Positions 1,729 to 58,557 of a stretch of DNA of 64,000 nucleotides are shown piece after piece. Made by a program: the position numbers and the translations under genes. The notes under the pieces were generated by a model. That model was not told the DNA's origin. It saw only the letters and a program-made list of their open reading frames with translations, and did not search any database. Numbering within the stretch: the stretch's first letter is position 1; the number at the start of each line of letters is the position of its first letter. The stretch is taken from contig MU832019.1 in the NCBI GenBank assembly GCA_029204225.1, positions 27,238 to 91,237 of the forward strand. Direction: 5' to 3'. Origin of the DNA: Diphasiastrum complanatum (lineage: Eukaryota; Streptophyta; Lycopodiopsida; Lycopodiales; Lycopodiaceae).

Positions 1729-2465
1729 TGTGAAGAACTGAAAAAGATTATCTATGTTAGATATAGGGGTCTTATGTTTTTTACATCAAGCATCTAGGTG
1801 TAGGATGTTGATAAGAATAAATTTGGCATAGATGGCAAATTATGCATTTCCACTTGTAATGTCACTATTGAGCCAAAATAGAGTAAAAGGCTAAACACGT
1901 GCCAATTAGAGTGTAGACAAGTGTAAAGCTTTTGTTTGATGAATTCCAAGAGGTCCAATAGGATTTAGAGGTGGAACCTTGTGAGGTCCAGAAGAAAATT
2001 GAGGTGTGCTTGAATATAGTCCAATAGAATTAAGAGGTGCATGGATCAATGGTCCAATAGGATCAAGAGGTGACAAAGTATGGTCCAATCATAGTTAAGC
2101 ATAGCGGTAGCTCGTGGATCTACTAGTATCATTGTACTCCTCATTTTGAATCTAATTGATTTGGTGATTTCATGGATTTTGTGAGTTATTGGATTTCTAG
2201 CTTTCTCTCTCTACCCGAGAGCTCATGATGTTTTTTCTCTCTCTACCCAAGGAGAGCAGCTTGTTTTTACTTAGATTATTTTTTGAATACTTCCCACATG
2301 TGTGAGTGAGAGTTGGAAGTGATTGAATGCATGTAGTAGTGTGTTTTTGCCATAGAATCAAAGATAGATCTTGAATCTCAATCTAGTCTTGATCTTGGTG
2401 CATCTACACACCTTAGGAGATCACAAGTACATGTAGTGGACAATCCACACGTGTGAAATTCAACA
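1729..2465 (+). repeat. 5' LTR of E1 (737 bp)
   Basis: The LTR starts tgtgaagaac and ends gaaattcaaca, directly followed by the primer site. It pairs with 12626-13362. It carries CACACGTGTG at 2446-2455 close to its 3' end and CACATGTGTG at 2297-2306. CT-rich runs near 2205-2260 repeat ctctctctacccgag. Confidence 0.95.
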
Positions 2466-2478
2466 TGGTATCAGAGCC
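2466..2478 (+). other. Primer-binding site of E1
   Basis: The sequence tggtatcagagcc immediately follows the 5' LTR and is complementary to the 3' end of initiator tRNA-Met, the usual primer of plant copia elements. Confidence 0.95.
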
Positions 2479-3222
2479 TACCTAAGGTTACCATGCATTT
2501 TGATCCATGTAAGTGAAAAAAATTTCATCAATCTTGAGCTAGAAGTTGTCAAGGCACATTTTCCTAGCTATCTTGTTCAATCTTGGATCAAAAGAGATCA
2601 AAAGGACATTGATTGGGTCTGACCTGGTACTGTACGGAATCAGGTGCTCAGACATGTGTGAGAAACATCCAATTTCAGTTTGGGAGTTCTCTCTCATGCT
2701 TGATCCATTTATCTTGTTTGATAGCTTGTTTTGAAGCTATTTTTGTCTAGTTTTTTATGCAATCAGTTTCATTGCATTTGGTTGAGCCAATCAGATGTTA
2801 TAAGCTTTTGAAGAGGGTTAGGTAGGGCACCTAGACCTGGGTGGACACATTTGGTTTGGTCAAGAGATTGCTTGGTTGATCCAAAATCACAGTTGTATGC
2901 TTGCCAATCTCATCTATATGTGATCTAGGCACTGTTTTGAGATCTTAGCCATTTTGTTTCATGCAATATCATTGTATTTGAGTCAAATTTGGTTTCTTAG
3001 AGTACTTCACACGTGCTAAGAGTGTTTGATCCTAACTTTGCCTATACTCCATCATTTGATGTGAAATAGATCTTGTTTTAGAGAGATTTGTGTAGCTAGT
3101 GAGAATCAATTCACAAATAGTTGCAAGATCTTTCATAGGAGGAGATAGTACTCTCTTATTGGATCCTATTGAGAGTGTGTAGCAACATTTATTGTTCATC
3201 ATTTGAGTTTTCTTCACTTCAA

Positions 3223-4350
3223 ATGTCTTCAATGGGTTCATCCTTGTTGGAATCAAGTGAAAGATTGAGCACTTCAAACTATTCAGTTTGGAAAATGAGG
3301 ATGGAGTCCATCTTGATCCTTCAAGACGTGATGGACATAGCTCTTGGCCTTGAAGAAGAACCACAAGTTCTTCAAGAGGTTCAAAAATACAAAAAGAGAG
3401 CTAGGATGGCTCTCCACTACATTATGATGAATGTCGCTAATGAGATATTGAGGGAGATAGGTACTTGTACAACAGCCAAAGAAGCTTGGGATTGTCTCAA
3501 GACCATCTATGAGGCTAAGAATACCTCTGGGCTTCTCACTCTTAGGAATCAAATCTTTCAAAGCAGCCAAAAGAGTGATGAGAGTGCATCTAGTTATGTT
3601 TTGAGAGTAAAAGATATTCATAGAGAACTTGCTTGTATTGGTGATTCCATCAATCAAAATGAGCTAGTTCAAGTCATCCTCAATGGCTTGAGAAGTGAAT
3701 TTGATAACCTTGTCAAATCCTATGCCATTAAGGAGGAGCTACCAAGTTTGGAGGCTCTCCAAAGTGTGCTAATTTTGGAAGAATCAAGACAAGAGTACAA
3801 GCTCTTGAGGATGGACAAGCTTTCTCTCACTCATAATGATGGCAAAGCTCTCTTTGCCAAGGATAAGCACAAAGGGAGGAGCAAGAACCAACATCAACAA
3901 TCCTCAAGCAAGGACAAAGTCAAATCCAAAGACAAAGATGAGGAGGAAGATGATTCCTCTAATGCTTCATCATCCAAGCTCAAGAAGAAGAAGATCAAGT
4001 GCTTTTATTGTGGCAAGAAAGGTCATTATGCCACCAATTGCTTCAAGAAGAAGAATCAACTCAAGCAAGCCAACATTACTAATGAGAAGGAAGACACTAT
4101 TGCAAGTGATGGAGAGGGATCTCTTATGGTCTTTAGTTTCTCATCTACTCCTTTCAAGAAGGACGACCTATGGTATATTGACAGTGGAGCCTCTTCACAT
4201 ATGTGTAGCTCCAAGGACTCTTTCTCTTCTATTGCACCTTATGATGGAGTCAAGAAATCAATATACACTGCAAATGATTTTGAATGTTCTATTGAAGGCA
4301 TAGGGAACATTCCCTTGAAGCTTGCATCCTCTAGTTCTTTCTCTCTCTAA
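3223..4350 (+). pseudogene. E1 Gag and start of protease
   Basis: The frame has a copia UBN2-type Gag with WKMRMES near its start, the ALHYIMMNV and EAWDCLKTIYE segments, a lysine/serine-rich linker, a CCHC knuckle CFYCGKKGHYATNC at about residue 260 and the protease active site WYIDSGASSHMC at about residue 317. I choose the ATG at 3223 because related Gags in the window begin at the same point; the frame is open back to 3169. It ends prematurely in a TTCTTTCTCTCTC tract, where the protease continues in the next frame, which suggests CT slippage. The Gag resembles that of E2 residue for residue over its first 270 positions. Confidence 0.88.
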
Positions 4351-4862
4351 AGTTCTTTATGTACCTAAGCTTACCAAGAATCTTATTAGTGTTGGCCAAT
4401 TGCTTGATAATGGCCTTGATGTAAAATTCAATGTTGATACTTGCACTATCAAGAAGAATGATAAGATACTTGCATTAGGATCTAGATTTGGTGGCATCTA
4501 TAAACTAGATCCAAATGAGTATGTGAATGCTTGTAATGTTGCTCTTGTGAACAAGCTCTCTATGGAGGAATTATGGCATAGGAGGTTGGGACATCCCAAC
4601 TACAAATCCATGCTCTCTATGATCAAAGAAGCCAAAGCTATTGGCTTGCCAAAGTCACTCTCCAAGAAGATCAAGCCTTGTGAGGCTTGTGCTATTGCTA
4701 AATCTCACAAAAAGCCATTTACAAGATCTTCTATCAAAAGCAAGCATCCTTTGGAGTTAATCCACTCGGATGTGCATTTCTCATCAACTACAAGCAAGGG
4801 AGGAGCCACTTGTTTTGTTACTTTCATTGATGATTACACAAGATTCACTTGGATATATCTTC
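4326..4862 (+). pseudogene. E1 protease end, pre-integrase and integrase start, cut by E2
   Basis: This continues E1 in the next frame: KVLYVPKLTKNLISVGQLL, then the pre-integrase zinc region LWHRRLGHPNY ... CEACAIAKSHKKPF, then LIHSDVHF with the first catalytic Asp of integrase, ending in FTWIYL at the E2 insertion. The target duplication TCTTC is 4858-4862. The frame resumes at 10419. Confidence 0.88.
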
Positions 4863-5509
4863 TGTGAAAAATACAGATCCTAAGTGGATCTAAACTCCAA
4901 GATCATTGGCTTGAATGCTTGCACTCCAAACTACATAAGCTAGGAATTGGCAACACATTCTATGCTACCTAGAATGCAAAGAACTTGATCAAAAAGCATT
5001 TATCACAAATGGAAACTTCCATAAACATCAAGTGCGGCCCAAAATAGCATTATACAGTCCATAATACATCAGCCTACCACTTTTGGAAAGCACCTAAGAT
5101 CATACACACAAAGCTTGAACTCAATCACTACACAATGCCAACAATGGAAGGAGAACCCAATAGAAAAATCTCTCATTAAGCAAATGAATACAATGGATCT
5201 GCTCCAACCTGTTTCTCCACGGCCTACCTGCTATATATAGCTGAGAGAGATGACTCTCTCTCCTCTCTCTAGACCCTCCTTACCTAAAATATGCCCTATA
5301 TAGGTAAAATTGGCATATATGTCCAAAATACATGAAAATGGACTCATTTCGAAGGTCTTGAAGTTTGACACTTCTTCATACTGAAAAAATACACTTACTA
5401 AAAATATCTAGACCTGTTTCACACGTGTGAAAAGTCAGATCCTAAACTATGTGCCATTTTTAGCAATTTTGGCCTAAAACTAGACAAGGAAATGTTGACA
5501 ATTTTCACA
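4863..5509 (-). repeat. 3' LTR of E2 (647 bp)
   Basis: The LTR has TG...CA ends (tgtgaaaaat ... attttcaca). It is a direct copy of 9772-10418 at a constant offset of 4909 bases. It contains a 16-bp perfect palindrome, TTTCACACGTGTGAAA, at 5417-5432 and TATATATA at 5232-5239. Confidence 0.97.
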
Positions 5510-5522
5510 CTCCCTCTTCAAC
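5510..5522 (-). other. Polypurine tract of E2
   Basis: The minus strand reads GTTGAAGAGGGAG directly before the 3' LTR, the expected plus-strand priming site. It begins right after the ORF stop codon. Confidence 0.9.
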
Positions 5523-8500
5523 TTAACTTGCTAGTTTTACAACACTACTTTGTTCCAACTTAAGAATGATCTCCATCATCAGAATAGATCTCTTCTCAAG
5601 GATCCTAATATGTACAAAATAGGACACAACATAATTGATATAGATAATAGTGTCCATATAGGATGCTTCACTATTTCTTACATCAATTTTACATAGAATC
5701 ATAAAAATGGTACATGTAAAAGAACATAGAATCTCAATTAATGAATTCCTCCATGTATCCATCTCTGGTTTCTCTGTAAAATAGCAGCAAACAAGTTGTA
5801 AATGAAAGTGATCAACAAGTGTTTGCATGCCTCCTCCACATTTCACTATACATATAGTGAATGCAACATGTATCTCCATGAATGAACTTCCATCACCACC
5901 TTGCCTTTGTAGATCTTCAATCCATGAAAGCCTTTGAGTGAATGAATGCCAAAAAGATGTGTTCCCTACTCCATTTGAATGACCAAAACCTGAACTTGAA
6001 ATACTTGAAGTACCTCCACAAGATTTGCACACAACGCTTGATCCTACAATGTCAACAAGTTGCCAATTTGCCAACACTAGAATACTAGATCTTGAACTTT
6101 GTTCAAAAGAAAACATATTGACCACTTCAATACCTTTCAAGATCTGAATGAATTCATGTACTTGATCATACAAACCAGCAATGATAACTATTCCATCTCC
6201 AAGATCCAAAGGATGCAAAACTATGGAACTAGTTTTATTGAAATTTGACAATTTCAACACATTGACATAACAATGTTCATACATGAGATTAGGCAAGTGA
6301 GGTAGAGTAAGAAGACACTTCCTTGAAGCTCCAAAGACCTTACTTGAACCTTCAAGAACCTGTAAAAACAGATCCAAAATGCCTTGACCATTTGTCTCTT
6401 CTTTGATGCTTTTCACTAGCTTCGAATTGCCACTTGTCTCTTGGTGTTGATGAAGCAATCCAAGATCAACCTCTTGATCTTCCAATAAGACATCAAAGAT
6501 CTTGCATATGTGAACATATTCAGATCTGAAACTCTGAAGATACTCCCTCTCAAACACATGATTAAGATCCCACAAGATCTCATCAATGCTCAAATTTGAC
6601 CCTTCACTATAGTTAGTGAAAACAATGCCACCATCATAAACCAAAAGATAGATTCCAACATTTCCATTTAACATGAAGTAGAGTAGGTGAAGATGAGTAT
6701 CAAACCTAATCAAAACAGCCCTCTTGAGTTCATAACAAACCTCAATAAGCTCACCAATGATATCTCCCTTGCCTTGAAGAAGTTGCCACTTGAGTTGCTC
6801 CATGTAGTCTTCTTCAACCAACCTTTTGCCATCTTGACCATGAATGAACAATCCACCACAATCATAGAATTCTTTGAGTTGATGAAGAGATGTTAGATCC
6901 ATGCTTTGGATCTTCCCAAGAACCACTCTTCCATTGCCCTTTCCTTCACAAGACTCCCTCTTAATGCTAGCACCACAAAAGTTAGAAACCTCCCTCTTGA
7001 TAGTTGCACCATAAGAAGTAGAAGACTCTTGAATATTAGAAGCCAAGAAAAGAATCCTTAGTACCTTCAACATAAGAGTGATTGAAGTACTCTCTCTTTT
7101 CAAACATGAACTTCTACTCAATGATTTAGGTAATGAGTCATATGATAATGATTCTTCCTCACTATCGTTCATAAAAACATCATTCAAAGTACATCCTACT
7201 TTGAACACTTCACATACTTCTCTTCCTTTTGACTTGTGATCTCCCTCACCAAGTCTCATGATAGAAACCTTTGATCTGCTCTTTTTATGAAGAAATGTGA
7301 CACCACTTGTTGCACAAATGACTTTATCACAAAAAGATGTAAAAGAACCATTTCCTTCAAGCATGCTCAAAGCACCATCATCTTTTCCCACATGATTACA
7401 TACATCAATATGAAAAGAATTAGAAGAACAACCATCTTCTTGCAAAGAATGACACTTAGCATCTCCATCTTTTTCCATATGAACAAACAAGTCATTAGCA
7501 ACAATCACTTCCAAAGAAGAATCTTCATCAGCTCCATTGATGAAGTTAGCTCCTTCCTTACCTTTTCCATTTTTGCACTTGCCATCTAGTTCCATTGAAG
7601 AGCCACCAAGACTTGAAAATCTATGAGTAGAAGAGTTCAAACATGATACTAATTTAGCACCACATGACTCCATTTGACTAGTAGGTAGCACTAGTCCATC
7701 TTCAAGATCCAATGGATCCAAAAAATTGACCATAGATTCACCAAAGCTTGCCAAGTTAGCACAACAATTATCATCTCCAAGAAGTACATTAGATCTCAAC
7801 CTAGATCTAGCATTTTGTTTCTTATGGCATTCATTTGCAAAATGTCCTTTCACTCCACAATAAAAACATTTGAACTTGGACTTATCTTGCTTCCTACTTT
7901 GCAAAGAAGAAGAATGCTTTCCATGCTCCAAACTACCTTGCTTGGACCACTTGCCTTTGAACTTGCCCTTTGTGAAAAGAGCTTCTTCATCTCCACCTTG
8001 TGTTGATGCACCACCACCTTTGGCTTGCAACCTATGCTCTTCAGCCACCAAGATCTCTTGCAAGTCATTGACACTTGGCAAGGACTTTTGTATAGCAAAG
8101 CATTGTACAAGGTTAGAATGTTCATCAAGCAAACCATTCAACATGACTTGAACTAGTTCCCCATCCTTTATGCTTTCATCTATGCATGCTAGATCATCAT
8201 TCAAGGATTTAACCTTCAAGACAAATGAATGTGCACTCTCTCCCTCTCTTTGACAACTTTGGAAGATTTGCCTTCTTAGGGTGAGAACCCTAGATGTGGA
8301 TTTGGACTCATAGATCTTCTTCAAAGCATTCCATGCTTCACTTGAAGAAGTACATTTACCAACTTCTTTAAGAAGTTCATTGGTAACATTCATCTTTATG
8401 ATATGTAAGGCTCTTTTAGCCCTTCTATCAAAATTTAGTTGCTCTTGAAGAATTAGAGGTCTTTCTTCAATTCCCACAACTATATCCATTAGGTCATTCA

Positions 8501-8663
8501 ACTCTAGTAAAGACTCCATCCTCACTTTCCAAGTTGAATAGTTTGTAGAGTTTAACCTCTCTTTAGCTTCCAACATGATTCCACCATTGGATGTCATGAT
8601 GCTAAAATCTTCTTGTGTCCTTAGGCTCTGTTCTAATGCACCTAGCACTCTCCTTTCTCTCAA
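5523..8663 (-). CDS. E2 Gag fused to a ~770-residue domain of unknown function
   Basis: The frame is 1046 codons without a stop. Residues about 23-240 are a copia UBN2 Gag (TNYSTWKVRMESLL, ALHIIKMNVTNELLKEV, EAWNALKKIYES). A CCHC knuckle CFYCGVKGHFANEC lies near residue 265. Related Gags begin at the equivalent of Met 23 (ATG at 8597), so that is the likelier start. Beyond residue 280 I see no DSGA protease, HHCC or D-D-E integrase, YVDD RT or RNase H box. The region is Ser/Gly/Asp-rich first, then more folded-looking, with the similar phrases LDPLDLEDGLVL and LHPLDLGDGIVI about 550 residues apart, and a hydrophobic C-terminus. The stop lies 13 bases from the 3' LTR. The function of the second part is unknown. 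Confidence 0.88.
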   Translation of the reverse strand: MRERRVLGALEQSLRTQEDFSIMTSNGGIMLEAKERLNSTNYSTWKVRMESLLELNDLMDIVVGIEERPLILQEQLNFDRRAKRALHIIKMNVTNELLKEVGKCTSSSEAWNALKKIYESKSTSRVLTLRRQIFQSCQREGESAHSFVLKVKSLNDDLACIDESIKDGELVQVMLNGLLDEHSNLVQCFAIQKSLPSVNDLQEILVAEEHRLQAKGGGASTQGGDEEALFTKGKFKGKWSKQGSLEHGKHSSSLQSRKQDKSKFKCFYCGVKGHFANECHKKQNARSRLRSNVLLGDDNCCANLASFGESMVNFLDPLDLEDGLVLPTSQMESCGAKLVSCLNSSTHRFSSLGGSSMELDGKCKNGKGKEGANFINGADEDSSLEVIVANDLFVHMEKDGDAKCHSLQEDGCSSNSFHIDVCNHVGKDDGALSMLEGNGSFTSFCDKVICATSGVTFLHKKSRSKVSIMRLGEGDHKSKGREVCEVFKVGCTLNDVFMNDSEEESLSYDSLPKSLSRSSCLKRESTSITLMLKVLRILFLASNIQESSTSYGATIKREVSNFCGASIKRESCEGKGNGRVVLGKIQSMDLTSLHQLKEFYDCGGLFIHGQDGKRLVEEDYMEQLKWQLLQGKGDIIGELIEVCYELKRAVLIRFDTHLHLLYFMLNGNVGIYLLVYDGGIVFTNYSEGSNLSIDEILWDLNHVFEREYLQSFRSEYVHICKIFDVLLEDQEVDLGLLHQHQETSGNSKLVKSIKEETNGQGILDLFLQVLEGSSKVFGASRKCLLTLPHLPNLMYEHCYVNVLKLSNFNKTSSIVLHPLDLGDGIVIIAGLYDQVHEFIQILKGIEVVNMFSFEQSSRSSILVLANWQLVDIVGSSVVCKSCGGTSSISSSGFGHSNGVGNTSFWHSFTQRLSWIEDLQRQGGDGSSFMEIHVAFTICIVKCGGGMQTLVDHFHLQLVCCYFTEKPEMDTWRNSLIEILCSFTCTIFMILCKIDVRNSEASYMDTIIYINYVVSYFVHIRILEKRSILMMEIILKLEQSSVVKLAS

Positions 8664-9759
8664 TAAATGAAGAAGGAGAAGATCTTAAAAGATTTAGAAC
8701 CCTAAATGACCTCTATCTTGAAACTATTTGGCTTTCAAGCATAGAAAGGAAGATTGAAAACACATGCAACACTTTGCACACACTAAGAATGGATTACAAA
8801 CTCAAAACAACCTGAACACACTCTTGCTTAAGCTCTCAAACTTTCTAGCAAGTGACCAAATCAAGTTATGGTGTGAAGAGTTACTTGCATTCTTAGAAAA
8901 TACCCAAAACTAGGATGCCAAAATTACCTAGTAATGAACAAACTTGATCAACATATGATCACCACACTAAGATATTGATTCAACCTGTAAAACCACATGT
9001 AAACCACACTTCTAAAAGTTTATAAACTCCATCAAGTGATAAATACAAGATTTAGAGGTGAATGAATGAGCACACTTAGTGAATCACAAGACTAGCTTCA
9101 CTATCTTGTCAAATCTTGGTGTTTAGATGTAGATCTAAGATCACTTCACATGAGAATGTTCCTCAACCTGTTAAGAACCTGAAAACACACTTGCATAATG
9201 GTTAACACCTTCCAGCAAATGCTCCAATCAAATTACATAAGGAGAGTTACTTACATGCTCAACAAAGTACACCAAAATTTATGCCAAAATTGATGACAAT
9301 CTTTACAATATGCTCTTCACAATGGAGCTTACAATATGTTCACCCAAAAAAGGGGATCTTTCATCCAAATGGGAGCTTTGCTCAGCCTTTAGGAGAATTA
9401 CAACTCACTCAAAAGAGCATTTGTCATCCACTTAAGGAGAAGTTTCATCCACTTAAGGAGAGTGTTCATCCAAGAATGGAGATTGTCAACAATAGGATTG
9501 AAAAGAACATTGTTAGTATTGAATATGCACAAGCCTCACAATCACAAATGATTAGGTGTTATGATCTGATCCAAAATAGTTTCTTTTCAGCCTCTGATCT
9601 TCAATAGACCTGAAATATGCTTTTGATCCACAAGTTCAACTCACAAAACAAAGGTTAGTAAGATTTGATCAACAAAGCAATGCAAAATCATGCTAGAACT
9701 TGATCAAACATCCAAATATCACCAAAAATGGAATACTTACTGTAAATAGAAGCCAACCA
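8664..9759 (-). other. E2 leader (presumed packaging and dimerisation region)
   Basis: About 1.1 kb lies between the primer site and the Gag frame. No convincing coding sequence was found. A short plus-strand repeat of catccacttaaggaga occurs twice at about 9428-9465 with weaker copies on both sides, and 'aacctgt' motifs recur. In non-autonomous LTR elements this region would hold the packaging signal recognised by Gag; that role is inference. Confidence 0.5.
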
Positions 9760-9771
9760 GCTCTGATACCA
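9760..9771 (-). other. Primer-binding site of E2
   Basis: The plus strand reads gctctgatacca, i.e. TGGTATCAGAGC on the minus strand, abutting the LTR with no spacer. It is complementary to initiator tRNA-Met, as in the autonomous copia elements here. Confidence 0.95.
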
Positions 9772-10418
9772 TGTGAAAAATACAGATCCTAAGTGGATCT
9801 AAACTCCAAGATCATTGGCTTGAATGCTTGCACTCCAAACTACATAAGCTAGGAATTGGCAACACATTCTATGCTACCTAGAATGCAAAGAACTTGATCA
9901 AAAAGCATTTATCACAAATGGAAACTTCCATAAACATCAAGTGCGGCCCAAAATAGCATTATACAGTCCATAATACATCAGCCTACCACTTTTGGAAAGC
10001 ACCTAAGATCATACACACAAAGCTTGAACTCAATCACTACACAATGCCAACAATGGAAGGAGAACCCAATAGAAAAATCTCTCATTAAGCAAATGAATAC
10101 AATGGATCTGCTCCAACCTGTTTCTCCACGGCCTACCTGCTATATATAGCTGAGAGAGATGACTCTCTCTCCTCTCTCTAGACCCTCCTTACCTAAAATA
10201 TGCCCTATATAGGTAAAATTGGCATATATGTCCAAAATACATGAAAATGGACTCATTTCGAAGGTCTTGAAGTTTGACACTTCTTCATACTGAAAAAATA
10301 CACTTACTAAAAATATCTAGACCTGTTTCACACGTGTGAAAAGTCAGATCCTAAACTATGTGCCATTTTTAGCAATTTTGGCCTAAAACTAGACAAGGAA
10401 ATGTTGACAATTTTCACA
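9772..10418 (-). repeat. 5' LTR of E2 (647 bp)
   Basis: This is identical in length and, as far as I can read, in sequence to 4863-5509. It is followed on the plus strand by the target duplication TCTTC and the resumed E1 integrase. The 16-bp palindrome with a CACGTG core is at 10326-10341, upstream of the TATA box in the direction of transcription. Confidence 0.97.
10141..10148 (-). promoter_or_regulatory. Probable TATA box of the E2 5' LTR
   Basis: TATATATA lies in the 5' LTR, followed in the minus direction by GC-richer sequence that could hold the start site. About 180 bases upstream is the palindrome TTTCACACGTGTGAAA with a G-box core. Assignment is by motif and position in the LTR only. 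Confidence 0.55.
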
Positions 10419-12070
10419 TCTTCTTGCTTCTAAATCTATGGTGTTTGATCATTTCATTATTTTCAAAGCTTATGTAGAGAAGCAATTCTCATTCAAGATT
10501 AAAGCTCTTAGAAGTGATGCAGGTGGTGAATATATCTCCAATAAATTTCAAGATTTTTGTGAGCTTGAAGGCATTAAAAGAGAGTTTTCTTGTGCCTACT
10601 CTCCATCTCAAAATGGAGTGGCCGAGAGAAAGAATAGATCTCTATGTGAATGTGCAAAATCTACGAGAATTGAGGCATCTTTGCCCAAAGATTTTTGGGG
10701 AGAAGCCATTAATTGTGAAAATTATCTTTGCAATAGGCTCCCACATATAGCTCTTGGAGGAAAGTCACCATATGAAATCTTATTTTTTAAGAAGCCTAAG
10801 GTTGATCACCTTAGAGTTTTTGGATGCTTATGCTTTGTCCATATTCCCTTGGAAACAAGGAAGAAGGAAGATCCTAGTGCATGCAAAGGGATCATGGTTG
10901 GATATTCATCCACCAAGAAGGCCTATAGAGTCTTTATACTCTCTACTTCTCAAGTTATTGAAAGTAGAGATGTTGTCTTTCATGAAGATCAACACTCATC
11001 TTTTGAAGAGGCCGAGATCAAGAAATCTATGGATGCATCATCAATTATTGATTTTGAAGACAATCATAATGTGATGGTGTCGAGATTTGAAGAAGACTCT
11101 CCTCGGATTTTCTCACCAAGAAGATCCATGAGAGATAGATCTGAGCCTAAGAGGCTCTCATATGTTGACAAAGGCAAACAAGTGGATCTTGATTCCACTA
11201 ATTATGTTTTTTATGTCTCTCATGAAGAGCCAAAGAATGTACAAGAGGCACTCAATACCAATGAGTGGTATGATGCCATGAAGCAAGATTATGATGCATT
11301 GATCACCAACAATACTTGGGAGCTTGTGGATCCTCCATCCAACAAGCATGTGATTGGGTGCAAGTGGGTATTTCGGATCAAGTTCAATCATGATGGCACC
11401 ATCAACAAGCATAAAGCAAGATTATGTTCCAAAGGATTTGTTCAAATCCATGGTCTTGATTATGAGGAGACCTTTGCACCCATTGCAAAGATGGTGACAA
11501 TAAGAATTTTCAAGTGGAAGGTGTTCCAATTAGATGTATCCAATGCTTTTCTAAATGGTTATCTTGAGGAGGAGATCTATATGGAACAACCTCAAGGATT
11601 CATCAAGGATGAGTCCAAAGTGTGCTTGCTCTTCAAAAGTCTTTATGGACTCAAGCAAGCACCAAGATCATGGTATTCAAGACTTAATTCTTTTCTTATC
11701 TCACTAGGATTTACTCTTAGTGACTATGATCCTTCCATGTATCTAAAGTTTGTTGATAGCAATATTGTCATTCTTCTAATTTATATTGATGACATTATTC
11801 TTTGTGGAAGTTGTATCAAGCTAGTTGATGAAACCAGGCTAGCACTTGGATGTGAGTTTAAAATGCAAGATCTAGGAGAGATGCATTACATCCTAGGCCT
11901 AGAAATTAATTTTTATGAAAATCATGTCTTTATATGCCAATCTAGATATGCTCACTCTATGTTGAAAAAATTCCATATAGAAAATTCTAAGAGCATAGAT
12001 ACTCCGATGGAGCAAATTGTAAAAGATCCTAATAAAGGTGATGAAAGATCCTTTGAGGACATCACACTAT
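10419..12070 (+). pseudogene. E1 integrase remainder and reverse transcriptase
   Basis: E1 resumes after the E2 target duplication. The integrase part has LRSDAGGEYISNKF (second Asp) and SPSQNGVAERKNRS (Glu), then VFGCLCFVHIP. The RT part has KHKARLCSKGF, QLDVSNAFLNGYLEEEIYM and LYGLKQAPRSWY. Its catalytic box is YIDD, where most plant copia have YVDD. About 15 residues are missing between KMVTIRI and FKWKVFQLDV compared with relatives, a small deletion. The frame is lost near 12070. Confidence 0.9.
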
Positions 12071-12610
12071 GTATCTTCATCTTGTGATTATGGTCTACTC
12101 TATAAAAGTGAAGATCTATCCATTATTGGCTACTCGGATTCGGACTTTGCAAGTGACAAGATGGATCGAAAGTCTATTAGTGCATACACTATCTTTCTTG
12201 GAGGCAATCTAATATCTTGGCTTTCCAAAAAGCAAGATACTATATCTCTCTCTTCATGTGAGGCTGAGTACAAAGCACTCACTACAACTACCAAATAAGT
12301 GCTTTGGATCAAGAGGTTATTAATGGAGCTAAAGTGCATGAAGGAGGATGATCTACCAATGATCAAGTGTGATAACATCTCGGCCCAAGCTCTTGCCAAT
12401 AATCCCATATTTCATGCAAGAAGCAAGCACATAGAAGTGGCACACCATTTTGTGAGAGAAAGGCTTACTGGAGGAGAAATCTATTTGGAGCATGTCAACT
12501 CGTCCTCTTGTATTGCCGATCTACTCACCAAGCCTTTGAGCAAAAGTGCTTTCATCAAGCATAGATATAATCTTGGAGTTATATCAAGATCAATGCTCAA
12601 ATCTTCATAG
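12071..12610 (+). pseudogene. E1 RNase H
   Basis: In a new frame the sequence encodes copia RNase H: GYSDSDFASDKMDRKS (first Asp), ISLSSCEAEYKAL (Glu), KCDNISAQALANNP (Asp) and the terminal HARSKHIEVAHHFVRE. A TAA at 12296-12298 interrupts the frame in the middle. The segment linking RT to RNase H is missing, so a deletion accompanies the frameshift at about 12060. The stop at 12608 is followed by the 3' LTR. Confidence 0.88.
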
Positions 12611-12625
12611 ATAATTTTTTAGGAG

Positions 12626-13362
12626 TGTGAAGAATTGAAAAAGATTATCTATGTTAGATATAGGGGTCTTATGTTTTTTACATCAATCATCTAGGTGTAG
12701 GATGTTGATAGGAATAAATTTGGCATAGATGGCAAATTATGCATTTTCACTTGTAATGCCACTATTGAGCCAAAATAGAGTAAGAGGCTAAACACGTGCC
12801 AATTAGAGTGTAGACAAGTGTAAAGCTTTTGTTTGATGAATTCCAAGAGGTCCAATAGGATTTAGAGGTGGAACCTTGTGAGGTCCAGTAGAAAATTGAG
12901 GTGTGCTTGAATATAGTCCAATAGAATTAAGAGGTGCATGGATCAATGGTCCAATAGGATCAAGAGGTGACAAAGTGTGGTCCAATCATAGTTAAGCATA
13001 GTGGTAGCTCGTGGATCTACTAGTATCATTGTACTCCTCATTTTGGATCTAATTGATTTGGTGATTTCATGGATTTTGTGAGTTATTGGATTTCTAGCTT
13101 TCTCTCTCTACCCGAGAGCTCATGATATTTTTTCTCTCTCTACCCGAGGAGAGTAGCTTGTTTTTACTTAGATTATTTTTTGAATACTTCCCACACGTGT
13201 GAGTGAGAGTTGGAAGTGATTGAATGCATGTAGTAGTGTGTTTTTGCCATAGAATCAAAGATAGATTTTGAATCTCAATCTAGTCTTGATCTTGGTGCAT
13301 CTACACACCTTAGGAGATTACAAGTACATGTAGTGGACAATCCACATGTGTGAAATTCAACA
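12626..13362 (+). repeat. 3' LTR of E1 (737 bp)
   Basis: This is the same length and sequence as 1729-2465 apart from scattered, mostly transition-type differences. In this copy the palindromes are CACACGTGTG at 13192-13201 and CACATGTGTG at 13343-13352, each a C/T change from the other LTR. Element H resumes at 13363. Confidence 0.95.
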
Positions 13363-29835: not shown

Positions 29836-31590
29836 GTGATAATTTTTAACAATAGACATGCAGCAAAAGGTCTGTTAGATGTTGTTCATACAAATATATG
29901 TGGACCTATACAAACACCTTCATTACTAGATGCAAAGTATTTCATTACCTTTATTGACGAATTTTTCAAAAGAACAGCTGTTTACTTTATTAAACAGAAA
30001 TCAGAAGCTTTCATCAAGTTAAGACAATTCAAAGAGCATGCAAAAAATCAGACTAGTAAACAAATGAAAGCACTAAGATCCGATAACGGGGGAGAATACA
30101 TCCCCACCAAATTCAAGGAGTACTGTCTTAACAATGGCATTGAGCAACAATACATTACCTCCTATTTGCCTCAGTCCAATGGTCTTGCTAAGAGAAAGAA
30201 CAGGACCTTAGTTGACAAATCGGCAAAGTGCATGTTATCACATGCGACACTTCTGAAGTCCTTCTGGGCTGAAACGTTTCAACAACAACCTATATTCAGA
30301 ACAGATGTCCTACTAAAAGTCTCTCAAACAAAACACCATTCGAAGTTTGGACAGGTACCAAACCTTCTTACGAGTTTTTGGATGTACTGTTTTGTGTAGA
30401 TTCCTCATGATCTCAAGAAGAAGCTCGACTTCCAGAGCATCATATGTATTTTCATCAGCTACACTACTTCAGATCAAGCCTACAAATTGTTCAATCTCGT
30501 CGAGTCGAAGATATTCACTAGCCGGAATGTCATCTTGATTGAAGATCAGTTTATCGACCTCAAGGGAAAAGGCAAAGCCCATATAGCTGACTTTTTGGTT
30601 TCATCCAACACATTGAACTTCCTAGTTTTTCAGTCGACCATTCCTATCGAAAGTCCAAGCTCATCTACTTTCGACGAACAACATATCAATGGAGAATCCG
30701 AAGATGATGATGATGTAGTTCAGCAACTATAGCATGATGAAAGTGATCAACTTCCTCTGTTTCCCAAAAGATCATCAAGAACTAGCAAAACACTTGTCAG
30801 GTATATCAACGATTCTACAACCTATCTTGTTCAAGAACTGACTACTATCGAAGAGGCACTCAGTCAACCCAATTTCGATCTCTGGAAAGAAGCTATGGAT
30901 AAAGAGTATTCATCTCTTATCAAGAACCAGCCATGGACGATTGTCGAATTACCTGCTAGCAGAAACGTAGTTGATTGCAAATGGATTTTAAAAGTCAAGT
31001 ACAAAACAGACGGAAGCATCGATAGAAGGAAAGCTCAACTTGTTGCCAGAGGATTTTCTCAGGTATACAACGTGGATTACACTAAGAGATTTGGTCCAGT
31101 AGTCAAGCATTCTTCTATTCGACTTTTATTATCATTTGCTGTTGTAGCAATTTGGAAATACATCAAATGGATGTACAAACAACATATCTCAATAAAGTTA
31201 TCGAAGAAGACATTTATATGGTGCAACACGAAAGTTATATTATCGAAGGTAAACACAATCATGTGTGTAAACTCCATAAGGTGCTTTATGGCTTGAAGCA
31301 ATCTACTTGAGCATGGTTTCAAAGGATCAATACTTTTCTTATTGATCACAGCGACACACCAAGCTCTTCATATTCGAATGTCTACTTCAAGATAGTGCAA
31401 CAGACTTTATCATTCTCACTTTGTACGTGGACAACACATTGCTCTTCGACGACATTATTGATTTGATAAAAGAAGCTAAGACAATGCTATCTTCTGAATT
31501 CGACATGACTGATCTAGACGAAGCTCATTTCTACCTTGGTATTCAGATTTACAGAGACAAAAGTCGAAAGTTGATCTACATTACTCAATA
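29836..31590 (+). pseudogene. Copia element 5 integrase to RT relic
   Basis: The plus strand encodes HTNICGPIQTPSLLDAKYF, LRSDNGGEYIPTKF and QSNGLAKRKNRT (integrase), a linker, then RT: WTIVELPASRNVVDCKWILK, RKAQLVARGFSQ, and EAHFYLGIQIYRDKS near 31530. Multiple frameshifts occur. It ends at about 31590, where the protease end of a sister copy begins without any LTR. Confidence 0.8.
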
Positions 31591-31599
31591 GAAGTAACT

Positions 31600-34500
31600 C
31601 ACACTTTTAAAGGTGCAGGTCCTATAAGATTGTGATTTCAGCATGATCAATTCAAGTCACTATCAAAGGTTTTATATGTTTCTAAACTCTCTACAAATCT
31701 GTTATCAGTAAGTAATATTACAGATTTAGGTCATAAGGTAGAATTTGAATCTAATCAATGCAAAATTCTTGATAGGAGTAACAAGGTTCTTGCACTCGGC
31801 AAGAGATAGGGATACCTATATAGATTGGTGCATTGTTATTCTAAGTCTAGTCAAGCTTTGAAAACCTCTGTTCTAGTCAACAAAGCATTACTATGGCATC
31901 ATCGCTTAGGACACTTGAATTTTGCAGTTGTTTTGAATATGTCCAGACAATTCATGGTTCTTGATCTCGACTATCCTACTAGTAAGGTCGACCTCCCTGT
32001 CTGTCATAGCTGCATCTTTCAAAAGCAGGCCAGGATTCTTTTTAGATCAAACCATAGGCATGCAGCAAAAGATCTGTTAGAAATTGTACATTCGGATATT
32101 TGTGGACCTATGCAAACTCCTTCATTGTTAGATGCAAAGTATTTCATCACTTTCATTGACGAGTTCTCTAGAAGAACAATTGTTTATTTCATAAAGCAGA
32201 AATCAGAGGCCTTTATCAAATTCAGACAATTCAAAGAGCATGCTGAGAATCAAACTGGCAAAAGAATTGAATCATTGAGGTCAGATAATGGGAGAGAATA
32301 TATCTCCACCGAATTCAAGGAGTATTGCCTTAACAACGACATTGAGCAACAATGCATCACCTCCTATTCACCTCAATCAAATGGTCTTGTTGAGAGAAAG
32401 AATAGAACCTTAGTTGAAGCGGCAAAGTGCATGTTATCACATGCTACACTTTTGAAGTCCTTCTAGACTGAAGCTGTTTCAATAGCAACCTATATTCGTA
32501 ATAGATGTCCTACTAAAGGTCTCTCAGACAAAACACCATTCAAAGTTTGGACAAGTACCAAACCTTCTCTATTAAACTTACGAGTTTTTGGATGTATTGC
32601 TTTTGCACAAATACCTTATGATCTCAGGAAGAAGCTTGACTTCCAGAGTATCAAATGTATTTTCATCAGCTACACTACTTCAGATCAAGCCTACAAGTTG
32701 TTTGATCCTATCAAGTCAAAGATATTCACTAGCCGGGAAGTCATCTTCATTGAAGATCAATTTCAAGACCTGAAGGGAAAAGGCACATCCCATCCAGCAA
32801 ACCTGTCAGCTTCACCTGACATATTGAACCTTCCAGTTCCTCAGTCGACTCTGAGCTCTTCTACTCTCTCCGAACAACCTACCAACAACAAAAAAGATGA
32901 TGTCGCAGTCAGCAACTACAGTTTGATGGAAATGATCAACTTCGCCTACCCAGAAGATCTTCAAGAGCAAGCAGACCACCTAACCAGTATATTGACGAGT
33001 CTGCAGCCTATCTTGTTTACGAGCTGACGATTATCCAAGAGGCACTCAATCAGTCTAATTCAGATCTTTGGAAAGAAGCTATGGATAAAGAGTATTCATC
33101 TCTTATCAAAAACCAGACATTGACTATTGTCGAATTATTTGCTAGCATAAACATAGTTGATTGCAAATGGATTTTCAAAGTCAAGTACAATGTAGATGGA
33201 AGCATCAACAAGAGAAAGACACGAGTTGTCGCTAGACGATTTGCCGCAACAGCAGATTTGGAAATACATCAAATGTACATGCAGACATCATATCTCAATG
33301 GAGTTATTGAAGAAGACATTTATATGGTGCAACCCGAAGGTTATATTATCGAGGGTAAACACAATCATGTGTGTAAATTCCATAAGGCACTTTATGGCTT
33401 GAAGCAATATGCTCAAGCATGATTTCAAAGGATCAATACTTTCCTTATTGATCATGGCTACATGCCAAGCTCTTCAGATTATAATGTTTCTTCAAAGCAG
33501 TGTAGCAGTCTTTTATCATTATCACTTTGTATGTGGATGATACATTGCTTTTCAGCAACAGTACCGATCTGATAAAAGAAGACAAGACAATGCTATCTTC
33601 CGAGTTTGACATGACCGATCTGGACGAAGCTCATTTTTGCCTTGGTATACAAATCATATAGAGACAGAAAACAGAAGTTGGTCTACATTACACAACAGAG
33701 GTACATCTACAATATCTTAGTCAGATATAATCTGATTAATTGCAAGATAGCTCTCTCACCAATGGAACTAGGTCTCAAATTGTCAAAGGACCAGTGTCCT
33801 TAAACATTTTATGAGAAGCAACAGATGTGTGAGTATCCTTACCATTCTATTATAGGATCTCTTATATAGGCCATGATCTGTACCAAGCCAGACATAGCTT
33901 TTGCAGTCAGCTCTCTCAGTCAGTTTATGACTAAGCTTGGTGCGACACATTGGAAGGCTCTTATCAGAGTCATGAGATATCTTCGAGCTACTATGGACTT
34001 TTGCATTTGTTATGGAGCAGTCAGGTTTGAAAACTCAATCTACTCAGTGCGTACACAGATGCAAGTTGGGCAAGAGATGTAGACACTCATAAATCCACCT
34101 CTGAATTTACATTCTTCCTCAACAATGGTCCTATTTCCTAGAACAATCGCAAGCAATCTTCGATAGCTCTATCTTCCACTAAATCAGAGTATATCGCAGT
34201 CTCTCTAGCTAAAAAGGAAGCAATTTGGTTGAGGAACTTACTTTCAAGTATCGGTCTGAATCAATACGCTCTGACAAAATTATTTTGTGATAATCAAAGT
34301 TCCATTGCCTTGTCAGCCAACTCTAGATTTCATTCTAGGACAAAGCACATTGAACTTAAATATCACTTTGTCAGAATCAAATTTCTCAACAAGGAAGTAG
34401 ACTTGTAGTACTTTAGAACGCAAGATATGACATCAGATATTCTTACCAAAGCATTAAGCTTGGAAGCACACAAAAGATTTTGTGTATGTTTGGCTACATA
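31600..34500 (+). pseudogene. Copia element 6, protease end to RNase H relic
   Basis: A sister copy of element 5: KVLYVSKLSTNLLSVSNI, LWHHRLGHLNF, IVHSDICGPMQTPSLLDAKY, LRSDNGREYIS, QSNGLVERKNRT, VFGCIAFAQIPYDL, RT pieces (DCKWIFKVKYNVDG, MVQPEGYI, YGLKQ), then RNase H-side sequence (MICTKPDIAFAVSSLSQFM, RTKHIELKYHFVR-like) ending near 34500. Stops and shifts are frequent. No 3' LTR was identified. Confidence 0.8.
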
Positions 34501-38483: not shown

Positions 38484-39555
38484 AAATTCTTGAAAAAGAA
38501 AAAATATATCAACTTAAATAACAAAAAGCGAAAAACCTGAACATGGCTAAATCCCGAAATATGCGAAGGTTTAGGGTCATTAAAAAAACGAAAAATGTGA
38601 CAGTTGCGGGTGATGGTCAAAAGCAAAAACTGTGATAGATCAGGGTTGTGACAATGCGAAAGTTGCAACAGTTGCTGGGTTTGAAAAAGCGATAAACGCG
38701 AAAGTGGAGAAAGCGAAAAATGCGAAGGTTTTGATTGTTTGAAGATGCAAAAAACGCGATGGTTTTAGGGTTATGGCAAAAAACAAAAAATGCGACAATC
38801 GAGAGTTAGGATAATAACCAAAAAATGCGAGAGTGTAGGGTTAGGGTAAAAACGAAAAATGCGACAATCTAGGGTTTAGGGTAAAAACCAAAAAATGCGA
38901 GAGTGTAGGGTTAGGGTAAAAATAAAAAATGCGACAATCTAGGGTTTAGGGTAAAAAACAAAAAAAAAATGCGACAGTTGACTGTAATGGTGGAAAATAA
39001 AAAATCGAAAGTTTTAGGGCTATGGGCAAAAGCCGAAAAATGCGAGGTGAAAAAACTCAAAAAAAGTGAAGGAAGCGAAAAACTCGAAAAAACTGGGACT
39101 CGAGAAAAATGGTGACTTGAAAAAATTTGTGACTCAAAAAATTGGTGACTCAAAAAAAATGAGAACTCGAAAAAGATTTGTTGGTCTGGTCGAAATGTCA
39201 GTGTGGTCGTCAGTCAAGTTCGCAAAGAGGGTCGTCGATAGAAAAATTTTTGTTTTCGTGTTGTTCGAAGGGTCAAAAAATAACAAAAGCTCGAAGAATA
39301 ACTAAGGCTCTGAAAAATAACGAAGGCTCAAAAAAACGAAAGTTCAAAAAAACTGAAGGAGCAAAAAAAAAACTCGACAACAAAAAAGCTCGAAAAAACT
39401 CGAAAACAGAAAAGCTAGAAAACGAAAAAATTTGAAAAATGCAAAAAATGGCTCGAAAAACACGAAAAAGAACTCGAAAAACATGAAAAACAAAAACAAA
39501 AAAACATTATCTGAAAAAACTCTAAAAAACATGATGCAGTCAAAATTTTAAATTG
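38484..39555. other. A-rich low-complexity DNA
   Basis: Plus strand dominated by gaaaaa/cgaaaa runs with recurrent aaaaatgcgac and ctcgaaaaa motifs. Open frames here are biased-composition artefacts. It contains the telomere-like repeat listed separately. No gene was seen. Confidence 0.6.
38780..38965 (+). repeat. ~70-bp tandem repeat containing telomere-like motifs
   Basis: The motif gagagtgtagggttagggtaa occurs at about 38829 and 38899, and gcgacaatctagggtttagg at about 38861 and 38931, giving a 70-bp period over about 2.5 units. Each unit holds agggtttagggt and agggttagggt, matching the plant telomere repeat TTTAGGG over 1-2 copies. Confidence 0.75.
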
Positions 39556-40975
39556 GCGGAACCGGTCGAGATTTAAAGGATGGCGTCGGTCGAGATTTGA
39601 TGAAGGGGTGTCGGTTGAGATGGTGATCAGAAACTATCGGTCGAGATGGTAATCATAAACTGTTGGCTGAGATGGGAAATGAAGTCATAAGTCGAGATGG
39701 AGTGGAGGGGCTCGGGCGAGATCGTGATGGATGGATGGCTGAGCCTTAGTCGAGATGGCTTCTGGAGGGCTCGGGTGAGAGCATGATTAATGGGTCGATC
39801 GAGTGTTGATGGAGGGAAGGCTCGGTCGAGATGGTGATGGAGGAGTCGGTTGAGTGTGTAATGGAGGAGCCGGTTGAGAGTTGATGAAGTTCTGACTCGG
39901 TCGAGATTTGAAGCTCAGACCCGGTCGAGATTTGACGCTCATGCCCGGTCGAGATTTGAACGCCTTCTGGCTCGGTTGAGATCTGAAGGAGAGACGTAGG
40001 CGAGATTTCTCAGAGAGGGCGCGGTTGAGATTTCAAAAGAATGCCTCGGTCAAGATTTGAAGCGCGGACATGGGTGAGATCTGAAGAGAATGCCCCAGTC
40101 AAGATTTGAAGCACGGACGTGGGCAAGATCTGAAGAGAATGCCCCATTCGAGATTTGAAGCGCGGACGCGGGCGAGATCTGAAGAGAATGCCCTGGTTGA
40201 GATTTGAAGTGCGGACGCGGGCGAGATCTAAAGAGAATGCCCCGGTCGAGATTTGAAGCCCGGACGCTGGCGAGGTATGAAGAGAATGTCCCTATCGAGA
40301 TTTGAAGTGCGGACGTGGGCGAGATCTGAAGAGAATGCCCCGGTCGAGATTTGAAGTGTGGACGTGGGCGAGATCTAACTGAAATGCTTCGGTCGAGATC
40401 TGACTGAAATGTTTGGTCGAGATGTGACTTAAAGCCTTCGGTTGAGATCTAATGAAATCCTTCGGTTGAGATCTAACTAAATTGCTTTGGTCGATATCAG
40501 ACTGAATGCTTCGGTCAAGATCTGATTGAAATCCTTCGGTTGAGATCTAACTAAATTGCTTCGGTCGAGATCGGAGTGAAATACTTCGATCGAGATCTGA
40601 CTGAAATCCTTCGGTTGAGATCTAATTGAATTGCTTCGGTCAGATTGGACTTAGACGCATTGGTCGAGATTTCAATCCGAGATCTCGTTCAAAAGTTATG
40701 TGGTTTGGCCTTGATCCGGTCTGGTTGAGATGGGAGTTAATTGATCCGGTCGAGATAGAGCCCACCGGACTTGGTCGAGAGATCGGACCCAACGGACTCG
40801 GTCAAGATCCTAACAGAAACCTGCGGTCGAGATTCTAACCAAAAGCCTCGGTTGAGATTTGATGAAGGGCATCGGTCGAGATCTGAAAATTTTTTAGTTT
40901 TTTGGTAAGCACATGCATCGGTCGAGATGGTAATGGAGAGGCGACTCGATTGAGATAGTGATGGAGGAGGTCGGC
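39556..40975 (+). repeat. Minisatellite: ggtcgagatytga array with 49-bp core period
   Basis: About 1.4 kb of imperfect tandem repeats built on cggtcgagat(t/c)tga. In the core, agatttga recurs at 40053, 40102, 40151, 40200, 40249, 40298 and 40347, exactly 49 bp apart; each 49-mer is a pair of half-units (…cgcggacgtgggcgagatctgaagagaatgcccc…). The flanks use a looser period of about 25 bp or longer. No coding role was found. The half-unit structure shows higher-order repeat formation. Confidence 0.9.
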
Positions 40976-55471: not shown

Positions 55472-55829
55472 TGTAATAGATCCTAACACCACAGTAGGGC
55501 AAACACTAACTGATCCACCCAACCTTGCCTACTCCCTGATATAGAGTAAGCCCCTCCTAGCCCAGTGTGAGGACTGGTAGCATGCTACTGCCAAGTGTCG
55601 GCCACGTGGCACTGACGTGGCCGACTGCACGTTGGGACCCAACTGGGAGCCCTATCCTGCTGACAGGGTCCCTAAGCTGTGTTAGGCCCGCCATGGCTAT
55701 GGACCGTGCTGGGGCACACTACTCACACTGTCTTGCCCTGTTGGTCATGTACGCTGGACACGACCCTCACTGTGGTATCTGACCTATCTGTGTTCTCTAG
55801 GGTTCGGCACTGGTTACGAGCTCGTAACA
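55472..55829 (-). repeat. 3' LTR of chromovirus derivative (358 bp)
   Basis: The LTR starts tgtaatagatcc and ends gctcgtaaca (plus strand). It contains the hairpin GTCGGCCACGT-ggcactg-ACGTGGCCGAC at 55597-55625. It is nearly identical to 58558-58915, with a few substitutions such as cacgttggg/cacgtcggg. Confidence 0.95.
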
Positions 55830-55840
55830 CTCCCTCCCCC

Positions 55841-56370
55841 TTAAGAACCGTCTTGGTCCTCTAAGACAAAGTCTAGAAAAATCTTGCGAAGGACGCTGCC
55901 TCTTTCCCAAGTGGCATTCTCAACAGGCTGATCATTCCACTTAACCAGATATTCTCGGTATAGAGTATGACGAGTCTGCGTCTCTCTACTATCAAGAATC
56001 TCCTCTGGTTCATGTGGAGGTTGTTGAGGATCCAATGGGAGAACTAGAACACTGTCCCCTACCAGATTGTCTGATTTGGTTAAGGCTTTTCGTAACTGAC
56101 TTACATGAAAGATTGGAAAAACCTTACTGCTCTGTGGGAGTTCTAGTTCATAGGTGACCTCGCCTAGTCTCCTACTGATGGTAAAGGGACCACAATACCT
56201 TGGAGACAACTTAGCACACACTCCTGATTTGAGGGTTTTAGAGTCAACTGGGACTCTCAAGTACACTTTCTCACCAGTGGAGAACTGCACATCCCGTCTG
56301 TGTGGATCTGCATAATGCCTGGCTCGATCCTGGGACTGCCTAATGCTACGCTTAGCATGTTGTAGTTGAT
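55841..56370 (-). pseudogene. Chromovirus integrase C-terminus and chromodomain
   Basis: From the deletion junction the minus strand encodes QDRARHYADPHRRDVQFS, then GEKVYLRVP, the GPFTISRRLGEVTYELELP segment (GPY/F module) and VFPIFHVSQLRKA. The chromodomain region near the end includes YLVKWNDQPVENATWER. The stop at 55841 abuts the polypurine tract (minus AAGGGGGAGGGAG) and the 3' LTR. The chromodomain targets integration to particular chromatin in full-length relatives. Confidence 0.9.
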
Positions 56371-57687: not shown

Positions 57688-58544
57688 TTTCGGAACTGAA
57701 AGAGAGGTACCTTAACTTCTGTCTGAAAACAAGAAAAGAGATTGACTAACTGGAAAATGAAAGTAGAGTACTTAGCTCTTTCTTAGGACTGTACTTCCAG
57801 AGCAAGAAACCCCCTCAGTTCTTCCGCAGCTGTCCAATCCATCCTCTTAAAGTGCATGCCATCAGATGAAGGCAATCTGGAAATTGTGTAGATGATTGTT
57901 GGAGAACCCCTGCTGATAGAGTTTGCCTCTGCTGCCTCCAAAAATCAAAGTTACAACTTGGGAAAGCGCAACCAATTTCCAAATTACTAGCCCTTTACCC
58001 TCGCTGTCTGATTAAGGCTATTTCTGCTCCAGAATTTTCGAATTTGACACTACCAATCAAATTGAATATCCAAGATTTTACATAGGTGACTGGTCGCTGA
58101 TCTATCCTGTCTGATCACCAAAGTTGGAGCAAAAACTTCCAAAAATCGGGGAGCAAACTACAGTTTAACTCCTGCCTGTCCAGCGCTGAATCTGCCTCAA
58201 GATTTCTGCCCTGAAACTACTTCAAAATCCGGAAACTTCACTCCGAAATCGAAGCTCAACCCTGATTTGGCAGCGCTGGACCTGTCCTCAGATCTGTCCC
58301 CATAATCCGCTCAGAAATCTGGATAAAAACATTCGAAAATCAGGGATGCAAGCTGATCTGTCAGCGCTAGAACTGTACAAGGAAATTGCCTCTAGAACAC
58401 TGAAAATCCCAGCAAATTTAATTGTGTAGAGAGCTGTTTCTACAGCAATGTCCCTCTTCTACTCTTTTCTGAAAATCTGAGAATTCTTTCCTAGCTTCTT
58501 ATAGCTTTCTCGACTGCTGTCCTGAACTCCCTAGGATGGAGATG
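57688..58544 (-). other. Chromovirus leader
   Basis: 857 bases between primer site and gag ATG, without coding sequence. Repeated gatctgtcc/cctgtcc-type motifs occur around 58190-58380. Confidence 0.5.
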
Positions 58545-58556
58545 GCTCTGATACCA
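58545..58556 (-). other. Primer-binding site of chromovirus derivative
   Basis: gctctgatacca on the plus strand, one base from the 5' LTR, complementary to initiator tRNA-Met. Confidence 0.92.
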
Positions 58557-58557
58557 G

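Follow-up and report, generated by a model that had tools for sequence, protein, structure and literature searches.

A young Gag-encoding copia retrotransposon of Diphasiastrum complanatum whose dead pol tail is probably kept readable, not kept as protein

Why should a retrotransposon keep some 760 codons open behind its only recognisable gene? The question is raised by a stretch of 64,000 nucleotides from Diphasiastrum complanatum (GenBank assembly GCA_029204225.1, contig MU832019.1, forward-strand positions 27,238 to 91,237), which we refer to as the window. At window positions 4863-10418 the minus strand carries a complete 5,556-bp Ty1/copia-type long terminal repeat (LTR) retrotransposon with a single open reading frame (ORF) of 1,046 codons. 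A first-pass annotation, made from the sequence alone, had read the part of this frame after Gag as an extra protein domain that may act in packaging, helper use or spread. We found instead that the ratio of non-synonymous to synonymous substitution (dN/dS, omega) is near 1 in that part and that it holds a decayed reverse-transcriptase (RT) segment. Our analysis suggests that this is probably a non-autonomous, Gag-supplying copia element with a dead pol tail that is selected to stay readable, not for the protein it would encode.

The comparisons below involve the window's own subfamily (A), a second subfamily (B), two related lineages (C and D) and an autonomous relative (L048). The parts of the element, with the tail after Gag divided into X1 and X2, are as follows.

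4858..4862, unstranded: left copy of the target-site duplication TCTTC, repeating the right flank
4863..5509, minus: 3' LTR, 647 bp, matching the 5' LTR at every site
5510..5522, minus: polypurine tract (PPT) GTTGAAGAGGGAG, adjoining the 3' LTR; the same string is found in lineages C and D and in L048
5523..8663, minus: single ORF, 1,046 codons from TTG; probable start at ATG 8597 (codon 23)
5526..6812, minus: X2, codons 618-1046, a module common to lineages B, C and D
6546..6812, minus: decayed RT segment at the start of X2, codons 618-706, from pol alignment against shuffles and from hhalign
6813..7808, minus: X1, codons 286-617, open frame with unconstrained sequence in the A-D comparison
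7690..7757, minus: in-frame duplicated segment, partner at 6187-6254 (71%), with a lineage D counterpart near the ORF end
7809..8597, minus: Gag with CCHC knuckle, codons 23-285, from Pfam and dN/dS
8664..9759, minus: 5' leader of about 1.1 kb from primer-binding site to ORF; each frame is closed by 25-27 stops
9760..9771, minus: primer-binding site (PBS) TGGTATCAGAGC, directly after the 5' LTR
9772..10418, minus: 5' LTR, 647 bp, identical to the 3' LTR
10419..10423, unstranded: right copy of the target-site duplication TCTTC, repeating the left flank

Gag is under strong purifying selection. Its omega was 0.10-0.15 by the Nei-Gojobori method (NG86) and 0.27-0.28 with the pairs' own substitution spectrum, and substitutions at codon positions 1/2/3 numbered 31/17/94 between A and D and 31/29/91 between A and C. 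The tail is open without detectable amino-acid constraint. Nei-Gojobori omega was 1.00 for X1 A-D, 0.75 for X2 A-D and 0.65 for X2 A-C (0.65-1.03 over the main comparisons), the own-spectrum values being 1.21, 0.91 and 0.92, respectively; pooled over A-D, own-spectrum omega was 0.99 (bootstrap 0.78-1.27). Substitutions in X1 A-D (26/41/28), X2 A-D (79/64/73) and X2 A-C (43/37/55) were spread over the three codon positions in counts none of which departs from flat (p 0.12-0.45).

Stops and gaps tell of the frame itself. Between A and D the tail showed 0 stops where 18.2 were expected, and between X2 of A and the copy L050, which had been chosen by sequence ahead of any look at its frame, 138 substitutions had left 0 stops against 9.5 expected. 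Gaps divisible by three made up 9 of 11 in A-D, 1 of 1 in A-C and 4 of 9 in C-D, compared with 1 of 14 in the LTRs; the difference was significant for A-D and A-C together (10/12, p 1.7e-4) and after adding C-D (14/21, p 5.6e-4). Seven blocks align between A and D, one of them moved, and all lie in a single frame. We infer that the openness of the frame is itself selected.

The frame is beyond chance, as the first-pass annotation had held. A first-order Markov model fitted to the region gives a probability of 1.2e-23 for 761 codons without a stop, and among 60 simulated sequences, each read in three frames, the longest open run reached 118 codons, which rules out a chance ORF; the remaining five frames of the region hold 37-80 stops. 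That the first ~280 residues are copia Gag was likewise borne out: Pfam placed Retrotran_gag_2 (2.3e-22), DUF4219 and a CCHC knuckle (0.002, below its cut-off) in the ORF, all before residue 285, and the first in-frame ATG, at codon 23 (8597), agrees with the starts of relatives (MASNGG, MATSGG). The ORF stop sits 13 bases short of the 3' LTR.

The structural claims of that annotation, namely identical 647-bp LTRs (0 differing sites), a TCTTC duplication, a primer site, a polypurine tract and a 1,046-codon ORF, were each confirmed. The LTR termini, TGTGAAAATT..ATTTTTCACA, are of the TG..CA type, and the PBS TGGTATCAGAGC is presumably of the initiator tRNA-Met type. Its broader picture is supported too: the lineage is copia, very young and non-autonomous, encodes Gag and has to take pol from elsewhere. 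The insertion lies within a related copia element and interrupts its integrase gene. This host element (window 1729-12925), whose LTRs are 98% alike in their first 300 bp, the part compared, retains its own gag at 3169-4350 and RT at 10438-12087, with the integrase split by the insertion.

If the frame is real, from what is the tail made? Of the pol series protease, integrase, RT, RNase H (PR-INT-RT-RH), Pfam found no domain after Gag, the only trace being the decayed RT segment, and the last 765 residues alone gave a single Pfam match (E 0.5). Codons 618-706 aligned with the RT of L048 at a score of 80, against 38.5 for shuffled sequences (s.d. 5.6, maximum 57), and 0 of 400 shuffles were as good; hhalign to RT gave E 1.6e-4 but a probability of only 51. 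Within the segment YVDD reads YDGG, and the YGLKQAPRSWY motif is lost too. The earlier statement that the second part lacks any pol motif therefore stands as to recognisable domains and YVDD, but not as to pol ancestry, as a decayed RT segment is present. In X1 of the window copy the resemblance to pol was not significant (20 of 400 shuffles as good against RT-RH, 80 of 400 against whole pol), nor was it in X2 after the first 120 residues (122 of 400).

An integrase-side trace comes from the sister lineage D, in which X1 continues an intact pre-integrase region in frame; its 170-residue match to pol (E 2e-29) is carried mostly by pre-integrase and runs ~30 residues into X1. Just ahead of the PPT, the final codons (KLAS) correspond to the terminus of pol and are read in its frame. 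Codons ~303-350 have their counterpart close to where the lineage D ORF ends, and A 52-203 aligns with D 1663-1814 in the same frame, as a moved segment. The two ends of the tail and one middle segment thus appear to be pol in the pol frame, and for this reason we read the tail as pol remains; the remainder seems to have changed beyond recognition and to be partly shuffled. Decay by frameshift was not seen when the internal region was compared in six frames with six pol and gag pieces: matches fell mainly in the ORF's own frame and were mostly weak, and a reversed-sequence control gave only weak ones. A frameshifted pol was therefore set aside.

Other sources for the tail fared no better. No homologue of it was found at E 0.001 among the 8,000 best protein candidates scored, and none in PDB at E 1. 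Transduction of a host gene was rejected, there being no cellular match in Pfam, in PDB or among those candidates. A new domain was rejected as well, on the same searches and on an AlphaFold2 prediction for X2 without a confident residue (mean pLDDT 32, 0 of 429 residues at or above 70); Gag, at the same five-row depth with more diverse rows, reached a mean of 54, with 72 of 243 residues at or above 70.

How widely is the frame kept? A 378-bp query from the ORF end, run against the 1.74-Gb genome, returned 1,247 first-look candidates, of which 40 were scored and all were 100% identical; at least 40 identical 378-bp ORF ends therefore lie elsewhere in the genome. We took 39 further loci, chosen by their identical ORF end and hence a non-random sample for the share of open frames. 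Identical 5-bp flanks were present in 30 of them, and 26 of the 39 had 1,031 codons or more from stop to stop, so that stops throughout the second part are not the rule in other copies. Locus L036 holds an open-frame copy plus a broken second element. Copies are ~99% alike within a subfamily. Of the differences between subfamilies A and B, 168 fall within Gag and 19 elsewhere, a concentration that shows that Gag has been exchanged. Breakpoints lie inside Gag in L030 and L014, and one piece of L024 comes from a third lineage.

Lineage C was found through this piece of L024. Its ORF (L052, 1,347 codons) encodes Gag, protease (DSGASSH), integrase and the start of RT up to IYMEQ, followed by an X2 with 79% protein identity to that of the window. 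L052 124-4164 is thus a semi-autonomous element: it lacks the RT catalytic core and RNase H, although Gag, protease, integrase and the start of RT are present. A protein search with its X2 found 94 of 98 scored places stop-free, 73 of them with the full frame of 1,340-1,348 codons (hand count). Lineage D was found through the copy L038, nested inside an old relative. Its copy L054 has a 1,203-codon frame with Gag, protease, pre-integrase, X1 and X2 that reads on into the LTR, as autonomous pol does; of 108 scored places, 91 had no stop across the 381-codon query, among them 23 with a frame of at least 1,000 codons (hand count). In a decayed D copy, L053 (273-1919, 1559-2701), the Gag-protease frame extends across the beginning of X1, out of the X1 frame, which gives two overlapping ORFs.

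The autonomous relative L048 encodes a complete integrase and RT-RNase H. All 111 scored places of this family were stop-free in RT-RNase H, and 73 had the 1,322-codon frame. L048 shares LTR ends and PPT with the window element, the LTRs being 85% identical, and both it and L052 have the copia-type domain order; the PBS is identical in A and D, the two lineages covered by that comparison. This abundant L048-type relative is likely the helper of the window element. The lineages have recombined recently: B and C have 935 bp around Gag in common (99.4%), and C and L048 have 1,722 bp of integrase and RT in common (99.65%). Such recent exchange of modules suggests that the RNAs of these lineages meet, which they would do most simply by co-packaging and template switching. 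Together they offer a well-sampled view of module exchange among autonomous, semi-autonomous (lineage C) and Gag-only elements.

An unrelated-looking lineage, E, repeats the pattern of an open frame with neutral-like sequence. A young element of this lineage lies inside the L050 copy (L051 147-4501, contiguous with L050 to ~1386). Its two 867-bp LTRs are identical, and its ORF of 673 codons contains the opening residues of Gag, a motif resembling CCHC, and RT traces in frame (E 1e-5); Pfam found no capsid in the 540 of 673 residues scanned. Its ORF contains duplicate halves with 39% protein identity, in which 113 of 113 codons are in phase, omega is 1.16 and 0 stops are present against 6.6 expected. 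The genome holds 33,499 first-look candidates for element E. All 86 scored places were stop-free over 497 codons and 80 of the 86 had the full 673 codons, though the best-scoring copies are near-identical and represent one successful lineage, not 86 tests.

What would favour a frame whose amino acids do not matter? We propose that the element encodes its own working Gag, that an autonomous relative supplies protease, integrase and RT-RNase H in trans, and that the ~760 codons after Gag are pol remains still read in the old pol frame. The amino acids of the tail would have been released from selection while the frame was kept, and lineages acquiring stops or frameshifts would lose out. The reason for keeping the tail open may be that one RNA serves as both genome and mRNA. 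Were translation to stop directly after Gag, an untranslated 3' stretch of more than 2.3 kb would be left, which could expose the RNA to nonsense-mediated decay (NMD) or related translation-coupled surveillance, and a frame open to 13 bases before the 3' LTR would avoid its destruction. By analogy with known systems, we regard this escape as the most likely reason for the open frame, with roughly an even chance of being right. In the cited passages, plant mRNAs with unusually long 3' untranslated regions are NMD targets, and in Rous sarcoma virus an element after the gag stop shields the RNA from NMD (PMC7566565). EVADE, a copia element of Arabidopsis, is described in the passages cited here as silenced in a translation-dependent manner via ribosome stalling and RDR6 (PMC8892269). 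Either route, NMD or ribosome stalling with RDR6, would favour a readable RNA.

Three other explanations account for part of these data. The second part could be a real, fast-evolving protein serving packaging, helper capture or escape from silencing, in which purifying and positive selection balance. The frame is indeed open in several lineages, some A-D stretches align well, and X2 A-C omega is 0.65-0.70 (p 0.04); we nevertheless find this unlikely given the flat codon-position counts and pooled omega of 0.99, with lineage E behaving alike, the decayed RT inside the tail, the segments shuffled or missing between lineages, and the lack both of a confidently predicted residue in X2 and of homologues in the searches above. 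If length mattered and any sequence would do, the tail could be a protein spacer that sets the Gag:Gag-X ratio, protease release or particle assembly. This would fit a length kept without sequence and a tail ending at the same place in A, B and C, yet ORF lengths vary (1,046, 1,203, 1,347 and 673 codons) and lineage E has no Pfam capsid in its scanned residues, which makes a spacer quite improbable. The open frame might also merely echo youth, with pol decaying neutrally and too little time for stops to arise, as identical LTRs and copies ~99% alike within a subfamily would allow. We hold this to be highly improbable: A, C and D are 11-40% apart over X (nucleotides or protein) with 0 stops against 7-18 expected, and insertions and deletions break the frame in 13 of 14 cases in the LTRs but mostly keep it in X.

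A tail selected for readability and not for protein remains the explanation we favour, and several observations weigh against it. Broken copies have spread to a small extent: the same stop occurs in L017 and L034, and the same 47-bp deletion in L035 and the second L036 element. An open frame is therefore favoured, not required. Single copies carry tail stops (L025, L029, L032) or tail frameshifts (L009, L021, L044). With an LTR-derived spectrum, X2 A-C omega was 0.70 (p 0.04), and weak amino-acid constraint in X2 is accordingly possible. Five of the C-D gaps are not divisible by three, though the frame is regained. As to origin, the match of lineage C X2 to RT is weak (18 of 400 shuffles as good), and no likeness to pol is seen in most of X1 or in X2 beyond codon ~735. 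The tables of scored copies cover the best-scoring copies only, and the choice of L052 and L054 for their long frames biases their stop counts; choosing a long-frame copy cannot, for its part, remove stops fixed in its ancestors. The L053 segment was cut at its first stop, has zero stops by construction and was excluded from the stop count. Finally, the evidence comes from comparing sequences within one genome.

Apart from the element, the window contains direct repeats 99% alike and 3,086 bp apart at 55472-58857, flanking a gag-like CCHC ORF (56257-57087); together these may be another short non-autonomous LTR element. A ~2.2 kb tandem duplication lies at 29848-33654, its pieces 81-90% alike, and tandem arrays are present at 39963-40680 (49-bp period) and 38542-39019 (~70 bp).

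How does the element compare with known non-autonomous retrotransposons? TR-GAG elements are short, with LTRs, PBS, PPT and gag as the sole recognisable gene, and are not known to have a long tail. The window element is like them in having gag as its only recognisable gene together with LTRs, PBS and PPT, and unlike them in its 760 further in-frame codons. BARE-2 and RLC_Angela are non-autonomous Ty1/copia elements that co-evolve with an autonomous partner; BARE-2 lost Gag and kept pol, and the coding sequence of non-autonomous Angela is degenerate. By comparison, the window element keeps Gag, and its pol is hollow but open. These two Triticeae copia elements are mentioned in the cited part of PMC9744471. 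The same part describes RLG_Sabrina and RLG_WHAM of wheat which, with RLG_Wilma, resemble the present case in having semi-autonomous Gag or Gag-protease elements, an autonomous partner and modular variants; in contrast, Sabrina and WHAM are gypsy elements with short unrelated replacement ORFs, and no long in-frame pol relic is described there (PMC9744471). The pol-less Athila families of Arabidopsis, as presented in the passages cited, likewise lack pol, keep gag under purifying selection and include recombinant lineages, but they are Ty3/gypsy elements with env whose intact ORFs are under purifying selection, whereas the tail here is open without it (PMC2410132).

The closest likeness is to RLG_Quinta, a Ty3/gypsy element of wheat with RLG_Cereba as helper, whose one ORF, in the cited passages, consists of Gag and an unknown domain without RT or integrase; its lineages A and B differ in Gag and are >90% identical elsewhere, which is explained by recombination, and the authors see no hint of function for the domain, DUF1, which was perhaps acquired later (PMC11302176). 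Both systems have Gag followed by an unknown tail, a backbone shared by two Gag lineages, and an autonomous partner whose ends agree with theirs. As in those passages, the window element lacks RT and integrase, shares LTR termini and PPT with an autonomous family and has an intact partner (PMC11302176). It is copia and not gypsy, its Gag being copia-type and giving no sign of descent from Cereba (Ty3/gypsy CRM), and its tail has been traced to pol and tested for selection. Relative to the cited passages, then, the architecture is known (RLG_Quinta, GAG+DUF1), and what is new is the copia superfamily, the tracing of the tail to pol and a frame kept without protein. No report of selection on a frame alone appeared among the literature matches listed or in the cited parts of these works.

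When an ORF is long and conserved, it is usually assumed to prove a protein; in this element, and again in lineage E, selection seems to act on the frame and not on the protein. Such hollow frames may be a third state between coding and non-coding, with selection on RNA readability in several copia lineages and a passive escape from translation-coupled RNA surveillance during which amino acids drift neutrally, a joint claim for which we find belief and doubt evenly matched. If true, it would explain part of the unknown domains of non-autonomous retrotransposons and would be a warning to gene finders; other Gag-plus-DUF domains, such as DUF1 of RLG_Quinta, may be hollow frames too. Whether plant RNA surveillance limits retrotransposons would then become a testable question.

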